Shown here: piece after piece, positions 10,904-14,239 of the stretch
How positions within the stretch are numbered: the stretch's first letter is position 1
Layout: every line of letters begins with the position of its first letter
From: Parvibaculum sp.
GTDB lineage: Bacteria; Pseudomonadota; Alphaproteobacteria; Parvibaculales; Parvibaculaceae
NCBI RefSeq assembly: GCF_002684405.1
Contig: NZ_NYVD01000081.1
Location: forward strand, 1-36,728
DNA: 36,728 nt
Direction: 5' to 3'
Made by a program: the position numbers and the translations under genes
The notes under the pieces: generated by a model
What the model was told of the DNA's origin: nothing
Database searches by the model: none
What the model saw: the letters and a program-made list of their open reading frames with translations, nothing else

Positions 10904-13057
10904 TCAGGCGGTGGCCAGCATCGTGTTGTCCTCGACGGTGCGCGTATAGGGCATGCGGACCGTGATGGTGGTGCCCTGTCTCGGTTCCGATTCGATGACG
11001 AGCGAAGCGCCATGCAGGCGGGCCAGCGCGCGGGTGAGCGGCAGGCCAAGCCCCGTGCCCTCCGCGGCATAAACCGTGCTGTCCAGATTGATCTGGCGGA
11101 AGGGTTCGAGCGCCAGCGGAATATCTTCCTTCGCAATGCCCACGCCCGTATCGCTGACCCGGAAGGCGAGACGCCGGTCCGGCTCGAGGAAGGGGGCAAG
11201 TTCCACCCGGCCGCCACGCGGCGTGAACTTCACCGCATTGGAAACGAGATTGAGAATGATCTGACGCATGGCCCGCTTGTCGGCGAAAAGCATCGGCAGG
11301 CCCTCCACCACTTCCACATGGAGCGAAACGCCCGCATCCGCCGCGCGATGATGGATCATCCGGCTGCAACTTTCGACGATCCGGTCTACCTCGAGTTCTT
11401 CCTCATAGAGCTCGTACCGGTCGGCCTCCACCTTGGACAGGTCGAGAATATCGTTGATGAGCGAAAGCAGATGGTTTGAGGATTTGTGGATGTCGTCCAC
11501 ATATTCCTTGTAGCGCTCATTGCCCATCGGCCCGAAAAGCTCGCCATTCATAAGCTCGGAGAATCCGATGATCGCATTGAGCGGCGTACGCAGCTCGTGG
11601 CTCATATTGGCGAGGAACTGGCTTTTGGTGGAATTGGCAAGCTCCGCCGCGTCACGCGCATCGCGCAGCTCACCCGCCGTGCGCTCGCGCTCCATCACTT
11701 CGTGGTTGAACTTCTCGAGCACCTGATTGTAACGCACCGCAATCTCGCCGGCCTCGGTAAAGGGCTCCACATGCACCGGCCGCGAAAAGTCGCTGCGCTT
11801 GGCCTGCGCCTCCATCGCACCCAGCACGTCGAGCAACGAGGAAGATGCGCCGTGCTCGGCCACGTTGAGGCCCATCCGTTCCGCTTCCTCGCTGACGCGG
11901 AGCGGCAGGAAGCGATTGACGATCTTCAGCACGACAAAGCCCGCCCCGAAGGCGAAGACACCGGCGACCGAGACGCCCAGAAGCTGAACGCCGAACTGCT
12001 CCAGCCGCGTATGACCGTCGAGAAACTGCGCCTGATCGCCGAAAATCGCCACGGCCAGCGTGCCCCAGACGCCCGCCGCCAAATGCACTGGCACCGCATC
12101 CACCGCATCGTCGATCTTGTGCGCTTCGAGAACCCCCGAGGCGATATAGGAAACAATGCCGCCAATCGCGCCGATCAGAATGGCCGACGGCGTGTTCACC
12201 AGATGACAATTGGCGGTGATGGCGACAAGCCCGGCCAGCACGCCGTTGATCGTCTGGTCGACGGGGGGAAGCCCGTTGCGCCACCACGTCACCATCACCA
12301 CGGCAAAACCGCCCGCGGCGGCGGCCAGCATCGTATGCACGAGAATGAAGGGAACGCTCGCATTGAGCGCTAGTGTCGAGCCGCCATTGAAGCCGAACCA
12401 GCCGATCCAGAGCAGGAACATGCCCAGCGTCGCAATCGGCATGTCATGCGCCTCGATAGGTCGCCCGTCCTTGCCGAAGCGCCCGATGCGCGGCCCCATC
12501 ACGATGATCGCAGCAAGCGCGATCCAGCCGCCCACGGAGTGAACGACCGTCGAACCGGCAAAATCGATGAAGCCGAGCTTTTCCAGCCAGCCCGCGCTTT
12601 CGCCGAACAACAGCCCGCCCCACGCCCAATGACCGAAGACCGGGTAGATCAGCGTGGACAGAATGGCCGCCGTGATGATGTAGCCGCGGAAGTTCATCCG
12701 CTCAGCCACCGCGCCGGACACGACGGTGGTGGAGGTGGAACAGAAGGCAAGCTGGAAAAAGAAGAACACCATGGTCCAGGGCAGCACATCGCTGCTGCCG
12801 GCCTGCCCCACCATCGCGAATTCGCTCGCGCCGATGAGCCCACTCTGGCTTGCCCCGAACATCAGCCCGAAGCCGATCGCCCAGAAGCCGAGCCCCGACA
12901 CACAGAAATCGACGACGTTCTTGACCGCCACATTGATCGAGTTCTTGGCCCGGACGAGACCGGATTCAAGACAGGTAAAGCCCGCCTGCATCAGCAGCAC
13001 GAGCACGGTGCACACCAGCACCCATGTCGTGTCTATCGATTGAGATAAGCTTTCCAC
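10904..13057 (-). CDS. Ammonium transporter-histidine kinase fusion (Amt-HK sensor)
   Basis: 717 residues in two parts. Residues 1-385 are an Amt/Rh domain with about eleven membrane segments. The twin histidines are kept (H173 in STVVHSVGG, H325 in VPVHLAAG), as is DFAGS before the first. Residues 390-475 form a linker with a helical, HAMP/coiled-coil-like stretch. Residues 476-705 are a sensor kinase: phosphoacceptor H487 in MSHELRTPLNAIIGF, N-box ILNLVSNAVKF, G1 DTGVGI, G2 GTGLGLPL. Amt-kinase fusions are known (an anammox Amt-sensor kinase has been studied), and this probably senses ammonium and signals through phosphotransfer. No receiver gene lies in the window. The 3' end is 4 bases from that of pdxY. 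Confidence 0.92.
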   Translation of the reverse strand: MESLSQSIDTTWVLVCTVLVLLMQAGFTCLESGLVRAKNSINVAVKNVVDFCVSGLGFWAIGFGLMFGASQSGLIGASEFAMVGQAGSSDVLPWTMVFFFFQLAFCSTSTTVVSGAVAERMNFRGYIITAAILSTLIYPVFGHWAWGGLLFGESAGWLEKLGFIDFAGSTVVHSVGGWIALAAIIVMGPRIGRFGKDGRPIEAHDMPIATLGMFLLWIGWFGFNGGSTLALNASVPFILVHTMLAAAAGGFAVVMVTWWRNGLPPVDQTINGVLAGLVAITANCHLVNTPSAILIGAIGGIVSYIASGVLEAHKIDDAVDAVPVHLAAGVWGTLAVAIFGDQAQFLDGHTRLEQFGVQLLGVSVAGVFAFGAGFVVLKIVNRFLPLRVSEEAERMGLNVAEHGASSSLLDVLGAMEAQAKRSDFSRPVHVEPFTEAGEIAVRYNQVLEKFNHEVMERERTAGELRDARDAAELANSTKSQFLANMSHELRTPLNAIIGFSELMNGELFGPMGNERYKEYVDDIHKSSNHLLSLINDILDLSKVEADRYELYEEELEVDRIVESCSRMIHHRAADAGVSLHVEVVEGLPMLFADKRAMRQIILNLVSNAVKFTPRGGRVELAPFLEPDRRLAFRVSDTGVGIAKEDIPLALEPFRQINLDSTVYAAEGTGLGLPLTRALARLHGASLVIESEPRQGTTITVRMPYTRTVEDNTMLATA

Positions 13058-13166
13058 CTCGACGCCCCCGACTGTCCCAACAGAGAGAGCATCGCAGAGA
13101 AGCGTTAAGTTTCCGCTTATCGAAAACTGCCGAATTCACCCGTAAACTGCTGTTTATAAAGCAATT

Positions 13167-13183
13167 TGCACAGTTTGTGTGCA
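13167..13183 (-). promoter_or_regulatory. Candidate NtrC-type site upstream of the Amt-kinase
   Basis: TGCACAGTTTGTGTGCA is a 17-bp dyad that fits TGCAC-N7-GTGCA, the spacing and half-sites of classical NtrC sites. It lies 110 bases upstream of the Amt-kinase start, in the only gap between that gene and asd. I could not find a matching sigma-54 promoter (GG-N10-GC) between it and the start codon, so NtrC binding is inference. Confidence 0.5.
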
Positions 13184-13216
13184 GACTATGCCTGCGCGAC
13201 CCGGAAGGCGGGGGTG

Positions 13217-14239
13217 TCAGCCCGCCTTCTTCAGATAGCGCGCCCCGAGAATTTCTGCGATCTGCACGGCGTTGAGCGCCGCGCCCTTGCGCAGATTGTC
13301 GGAGACGACCCACAGGTTGAGACCGTTATCGACGGTGGGGTCGGAGCGCAGCCGGCTGATATAGGTCGCATACTCGCCCACGCATTCGACCGGCGTGACG
13401 TAACCGCCATCCTCGCGCTTGTCGACGACGAGACAACCCGGCGCCTCGCGCAGGATGTCGCGCGCCTCATCGTCGGAAATCTCCCGCTCGAATTCGAGAT
13501 TGAGCGCTTCGGCATGCCCCACGAAAACCGGCACGCGCACACAGGTCGCCGTCACCTTGATCTTCGGATCGAGGATCTTCTTGGTTTCGACCATCATCTT
13601 CCATTCCTCCTTGGTCGAGCCGTCTTCCATGAAGGCGTCGATATGAGGAATGACGTTGAAGGCGATCTGCTTGGTGAAGAACTCCGATTCCTTCGGATCG
13701 TTCACGAAGATGGAGCGCGTCTGGGTGAAGAGCTCATCCATCGCCTCCTTGCCCGCGCCGGAAACCGACTGATAGGTCGACACCACGCAGCGCGTGATCT
13801 TCGCCGCATCGTGCAGCGGCTTCATCGCCACCACCATCTGCGCCGTGGAACAATTCGGGTTCGCGATGATGTTCTTCTTGGTGTAACCGGCAATCGCGTC
13901 GGCATTCACTTCCGGCACCACGAGCGGCACATCCGGGTCCATCCGCCACTTCGACGAATTGTCGATGACGACGCAGCCCTTGGCTGCGATCTTGGGCGCC
14001 CATTCCGCCGACATCTCGCCGGACGTCGCCATCAGGCAGATATCGGTGCCCGCGAAATCATAGGTATCGAGCGCCTTCACCTTAAGCGTGCGCTCGCCAT
14101 AAGAGACTTCCGTCCCCTGGCTGCGGCGCGAGGCAAGCGCCACCACCTCGTCGGCGGGGAACTCGCGCTCCGCAAGGATGTTGAGCATCTCCTGGCCCAC
14201 ATTACCCGTGGCACCGAGGACGGCGACCTTGTAGCCCAT
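13217..14239 (-). CDS. asd: Aspartate-semialdehyde dehydrogenase
   Basis: A 340-residue NADPH enzyme that reduces aspartyl phosphate to aspartate semialdehyde, feeding lysine, diaminopimelate, threonine and methionine synthesis. Seen: nucleotide-binding motif VAVLGATGNVGQEML (5-19), catalytic C130 in ANPNCSTAQMV, Q157 in TYQSVSGAG, and the substrate region VRVPVFVGHAEALNLEFE. Normal length. It is 66 bases after leuB on the same strand and probably ends the leuC-leuD-leuB-asd unit. Its stop codon sits in a GC-rich dyad without a T-run. Confidence 0.97.
   Translation of the reverse strand: MGYKVAVLGATGNVGQEMLNILAEREFPADEVVALASRRSQGTEVSYGERTLKVKALDTYDFAGTDICLMATSGEMSAEWAPKIAAKGCVVIDNSSKWRMDPDVPLVVPEVNADAIAGYTKKNIIANPNCSTAQMVVAMKPLHDAAKITRCVVSTYQSVSGAGKEAMDELFTQTRSIFVNDPKESEFFTKQIAFNVIPHIDAFMEDGSTKEEWKMMVETKKILDPKIKVTATCVRVPVFVGHAEALNLEFEREISDDEARDILREAPGCLVVDKREDGGYVTPVECVGEYATYISRLRSDPTVDNGLNLWVVSDNLRKGAALNAVQIAEILGARYLKKAG

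Follow-up and report, generated by a model that had tools for sequence, protein, structure and literature searches.

A putative NtrC-type operator shared by an Amt-histidine kinase gene and glnK-amtB in Parvibaculum

Amt-kinase sensors, in which an ammonium transporter domain is fused to a histidine kinase, are known mainly from anammox bacteria. For the anammox Amt-kinase that has been studied, no response regulator has been identified according to the available text of PMC12918730. The window analyzed here, 36,728 nucleotides of DNA from an alphaproteobacterial Parvibaculum species, contains an Amt-kinase gene preceded by an NtrC-like dyad, and the question is whether this sensor is itself controlled by NtrC, and in what way, at a promoter that shows no sign of sigma-54. 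The features of the locus, in order of coordinates, are as follows.

10904..13057, minus strand, gene of the Amt-histidine kinase, 717 aa, GTG start, from domain matches (ammonium transporter 12-405, HisKA 478-545, HATPase_c 593-705)
13088..13108, minus strand, promoter-like box TTAACG-N9-GATGCT, from the alignment, with a predicted promoter role
13167..13183, minus strand, putative NtrC-type operator, TGCACA-CAAAC-TGTGCA on the coding strand
13204..13229, minus strand, GC-rich hairpin at the asd stop, GAAGGCGGG/CCCGCCTTC, read by eye
13217..14239, minus strand, upstream gene asd (aspartate-semialdehyde dehydrogenase)

The fusion of an Amt domain to HisKA and HATPase_c, together with a match to the Amt domain of Ks-Amt5 (PDB 6EU6, 1.1e-103), makes the 717-aa protein a candidate ammonium-sensing histidine kinase of the Ks-Amt5 type. 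As in Ks-Amt5 of Kuenenia stuttgartiensis, described in part of PMC5764959, the Amt domain is N-terminal and there is no adjacent GlnK gene, whereas the window protein is alphaproteobacterial, has a DivJ/PdhS-like kinase half and is preceded by an NtrC-type operator. Among the NCBIfam kinase models, the best matches of the kinase half (window 10904-11700) were DivJ (1.1e-69) and PdhS (6e-68), both far under the model cut-offs; this resemblance suggests a partner of the DivK/PleD type.

The dyad reads TGCACACAAACTGTGCA on the minus strand (13183-13167) and TGCACAGTTTGTGTGCA on the plus strand (13167-13183). The initial annotation had described it as a 17-bp TGCAC-N7-GTGCA dyad 110 bases from the start codon. 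Direct reading bears out the dyad and its span, while the five-base arms, which are present, prove too short a description of arms that are really six bases each (TGCACA-N5-TGTGCA), and the nearly correct distance comes to 109 bases (13058-13166) before the GTG at 13057. On the other side, the asd stop codon precedes the dyad by 33 bases; we do not think that asd is its target. The GC-rich hairpin at this stop codon has no T run and could possibly form the 3' end of asd.

TGCAC-N7-GTGCA occurs once in the window, at this place, and in none of 100 dinucleotide shuffles of the window. Near-dyads are rarer in the window than in the shuffles, with 6 versus 17.8 at up to two mismatches to the five-base form and 2 versus 11 at up to three mismatches to the six-base form. 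In the 3.42-Mb genome the five-base form has four copies, versus about three expected by our own arithmetic for random sequence, so this pattern by itself proves little, and an assessment resting on the five-base arms only was rejected. The six-base form, by contrast, has two copies, upstream of the Amt-kinase gene and of glnK-amtB, with no third copy in the genome when one mismatch is allowed. Of the remaining two five-base copies, one (C120) lies inside a long open reading frame on one strand, and the other (C98) inside a long frame that a greedy reading put on the opposite strand.

The glnK-amtB genes are at the core of NtrC regulons. The initial annotation had suggested looking for the same dyad upstream of glnA/glnK, and the second and last genomic copy does lie before glnK (G000:C27:5450-5466). 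It is flanked by an amt gene on one side and glnK-amtB on the other, 290 bases ahead of the glnK ATG and 121 bp (start to start) ahead of a sigma-54 type promoter, CGGCACGGTTTTTGA. In 18 of 30 glnK loci, those where both patterns were found at no more than one arm change, the distance from the dyad to the CGGCACGGTTCTTG-type promoter is 110 bp in five genomes, 121 bp in two and 131-133 bp in 11. These spacings step by about one helical turn; a check against random triples gave P of about 0.02, a post hoc value on related genomes. The amt gene upstream of glnK has a sigma-54-like promoter of its own, CGGCACGCTTCTTG in G000 and CGGCACACTTCTTG in G012, and both genomes carry a dyad with two or one mismatches some 353 bp ahead of that promoter (dyad and promoter at L194:963-979 and 1317 in G000, and at L212:1818-1834 and 2170 in G012).

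The genome also encodes a full NtrC. This protein scores 714 bits against a curated cut-off of 558.6 and carries the GAFTGA loop (KGAFTGANQR) and a Fis-type HTH; rpoN was found as two pieces at contig ends. Further NtrC-like proteins are the adjacent NtrX, which has no GAFTGA loop, a 423-bit match at C145 and a fragment at C151. No dyad match better than three mismatches was found at glnB, the third P-II gene or dusB-ntrBC of the window genome, nor, in the wider comparison, in the six genomes read for glnB or the five read for the third P-II gene. The three-mismatch sequence TGCACAATTTTTTAACA, 22 bases before dusB, is possibly a half site.

Conservation was followed in 40 genomes of the family, which are also the whole sample for the order. 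The exact TGCACA-N5-TGTGCA dyad has 34 copies in 22 of them, versus two copies of the reversed control pattern in the same 40 genomes; as the genomes are related, these counts are not independent events. Sixteen copies precede Amt-kinase orthologues and 16 precede glnK. One of the other two (G036, L104:1501-1517) lies 28 bases ahead of the ATG of a glutaminase gene (PF04960, 2.5e-110), where no sigma-54-like match was found, and the last is inside an unrelated open reading frame of G007, sulfatase-like as far as can be judged from its sequence by eye.

The initial annotation had made conservation upstream of orthologues a test of the site. Within the genus, among 20 Amt-kinase genes with a readable start and upstream DNA, the dyad is exact in 16 and has one (G034, G036) or two (G013, G025) mismatches in the other four. 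In two sister genera it was found at none of six orthologues (best matches with three to five mismatches in 320 bases), and the more distant Amt-kinases at L012-L014 (51-56% identity) have none. Not included in these counts are genes truncated at the end of a contig (G019, G028, G008), genomes in which identity and coverage gave no Amt-kinase orthologue, both in the genus (G014, G029, G030, G031, G035) and outside it (G001, G002, G004, G005, G010, G011), and loci L005-L010 and L016, which duplicate G-numbered genomes in upstream DNA and identities. G018, where the Amt-kinase match is split in two, is one of the 20 and is absent from the alignment, the mismatch scoring and the box spacing; G021 and G036 fit poorly in the upstream alignment. 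The glnK dyads of the five genus members without the Amt-kinase are degraded, with one to three mismatches, and G021 has an exact dyad at the Amt-kinase gene and a half site at glnK.

A sample of 385 genomes drawn from the class was searched for TGCAC-N7-GTGCA followed at 95-125 bp by GGCACG-N4-TTG. The pattern was found in six genomes, and its reversed control gave no match; as the pattern is strict, this number does not measure the frequency of such sites. Three of the matches are before glnK in the window's family (G000, G003, G034). The other three, in two further families, precede an Amt gene (two cases) or glnK-amtB (one case), and one of the Amt proteins from these matches was itself checked. 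All six carry TGCACA/TGTGCA arms, though the pattern left positions 6 and 12 free. We see good evidence in these sequences that TGCACA-N5-TGTGCA serves as the NtrC operator at the ammonium-uptake genes of these bacteria.

The site resembles the enteric NtrC enhancer, TGCACC(A/T)4TGGTGCA in a table of PMC4987338, in being a 17-bp dyad with TGCAC/GTGCA outer arms, in having glnK-amtB as a target and in its sigma-54 promoter at glnK. It differs in having A/T for C/G at positions 6 and 12 of the window dyad, and the window Amt-kinase gene has a single site and no sigma-54 promoter. As judged from the sequences found, the A/T pair sets the site apart from the enteric form but agrees with the alphaproteobacterial copies; those of the family have it by design of the exact pattern, whereas those of the class were found with this position free. 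No description of the dyad site was found in open-licence literature on NtrC in Parvibaculum, on NtrC and TGCACA sequences or on Amt kinases and NtrC, by titles and abstract openings.

The Amt-kinase gene lacks a sigma-54 promoter in the window, as the initial annotation had noted, and throughout the genus. In 25 orthologue upstream regions the best scores over 11 positions are 6-8, none at a shared place, versus 8-9 at the glnK promoters of all genomes but one (G002). GG-N10-G[CA] occurs at any single offset from the Amt-kinase dyad in at most three of 15 genomes, and searches for GGCA[CT] upstream of the gene revealed nothing conserved. No sigma-70 promoter was found in a scan of 12900-13400. 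What is conserved in the genus is a box, TTTACC...GATACT, with the form TTAACG...GATGCT in the window (13108-13088), which may be a sigma-54-independent promoter; a similar box, read by eye, seems to recur in sister genera without the dyad. Among 19 aligned genus sequences, the distance from the dyad centre to the G of GAT is 73 bp in 14 genomes, 74 bp in one and 82 bp in the window genome. In G021 it is perhaps 124 bp with a doubtful box, and no value was obtained from G036 or from G012, which by the alignment is like the window. From the box to the start the distance varies between 34 and 49. Testing 73, 82 and 124 for a common phase gave no significant result (P of about 0.08); the box was picked after viewing the alignment, and spacing and phasing are post hoc on related genomes.

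We propose, with a probability of about 0.8, that the NtrC operator places the Amt-kinase gene in a small regulon with glnK-amtB and acts there on a sigma-54-independent promoter. The dyad shared with the ammonium-uptake genes makes it very probable that the sensor kinase is under the control of the general nitrogen regulator, and we infer with good confidence that NtrC is the binder. The nitrogen control of the sensor suggested by the initial annotation is in this way supported by the sharing with glnK, the conservation in the genus and the presence of NtrC, and its provision for another mode is borne out by a dyad without a sigma-54 promoter in a genome whose NtrC has the GAFTGA loop, so that the mode would not be the classical one. 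NtrC would bind the TGCACA/TGTGCA operator at both loci. At glnK the operator would be a classical remote enhancer for the sigma-54 promoter; at the Amt-kinase gene NtrC would sit at a fixed distance upstream of the sigma-54-independent promoter near 13088-13108 and alter its output with nitrogen status. Counting against this explanation are the sister-genus orthologues, six of six without the dyad yet with a similar box kept, the half site at glnK of G021 and the lack of a close dyad at glnB, the third P-II gene and dusB-ntrBC. A conserved NtrC-type operator would tie the alphaproteobacterial Amt-kinase to nitrogen status and give growth conditions for its study, and the promoter would let one test, in a natural setting, whether an NtrC competent for sigma-54 also governs a promoter that does not use it.

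The sign of the effect is nearly balanced, and we lean slightly towards NtrC raising Amt-kinase expression under nitrogen limitation. Activation is favoured by the fixed upstream place of the dyad, and also by Ks-Amt5, which is said to rise in ammonium-limited growth (PMC12918730, citing other work). NtrC acting on sigma-70 promoters without sigma-54, as activator and repressor, is described for Caulobacter and Rhodobacter in part of PMC10274813; as there, a gene without a sigma-54 promoter and a glnK-amt target would be under NtrC here, also in the Alphaproteobacteria. The NtrC proteins of those bacteria lack GAFTGA, whereas the one in the window genome has it and presumably uses it with sigma-54 at glnK, so activation of a non-sigma-54 promoter by it would be unusual. 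It is possible, though the less probable course, that NtrC binds as a repressor of a sigma-70-type promoter, so that nitrogen limitation lowers the sensor. This would suit a GAFTGA-bearing NtrC at a gene with no sigma-54 promoter and the glutaminase gene of G036, where repression in nitrogen limitation would be sensible, and in Caulobacter NtrC acts as a repressor on its own operon and on genes activated by CtrA (PMC10274813, in part). However, the dyad is centred 73-82 bp upstream of the candidate promoter box instead of lying over it, and the glutaminase case comes from one genome.

Binding of the dyad by another Fis-type bEBP or an unrelated dimeric regulator seems quite improbable. The non-enteric bases at positions 6 and 12 and the other NtrC-like proteins (NtrX, C145, C151) would allow for it, but the targets are the textbook NtrC core glnK-amtB, so named in the available part of PMC5343134, coupled to sigma-54 in three families; and NtrX, having no GAFTGA loop, would be unable to act on the glnK promoter by the classical mechanism.

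Slightly less probable again is that the dyad works as an RNA hairpin, for instance as the asd terminator or as an attenuator in the leader, instead of binding a protein. From outside to inside, the outer arms at the Amt-kinase gene are symmetric in 8, 8, 8, 6, 11 and 4 of 11 distinct sequences, as opposed to 0, 2, 3, 4, 5 and 2 of 13 at glnK; folding energies at the Amt-kinase dyads reach -19.6 kcal/mol, and in a scan the dyad comes up as a terminator-like element of the minus strand. The terminator reading, which the extended arms had prompted, fails on the glnK copies, where the same core stands before a sigma-54 promoter with flanks that are not symmetric. Moreover, the outer arms in the window are poor (-7.6 kcal/mol) with no T run after them, the dyad is retained in G018 and G020, where the roughly 430-440 upstream bases before the contig end contain no asd match, and the core letters are identical in all 11 distinct sequences, though these were selected as exact. 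A chance dyad, which the five-base count in the genome would permit, is contradicted by the distribution of the 34 copies and the conservation in the genus and has a negligible probability.

Returning to the NtrC operator, a rather improbable extension is that one GAFTGA-NtrC operator works in two modes, as an enhancer at glnK and at fixed distance at a sensor whose kinase half would feed DivK/CtrA. If true, internal nitrogen status would set how strongly external ammonium steers division.

Two features of the flanks deserve mention. In several genomes of the genus the Amt-kinase dyads, not those at glnK, extend to palindromes with 12-base arms and matched changes on both sides, and NtrC binding alone gives no explanation for these extended flanks. 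In most genus genomes, not including G000 and G012, the 5' side of the dyad is abutted by a GTTAACC-N4-GATAA-like box, which resembles a CtrA site (consensus TTAA-N7-TTAA).
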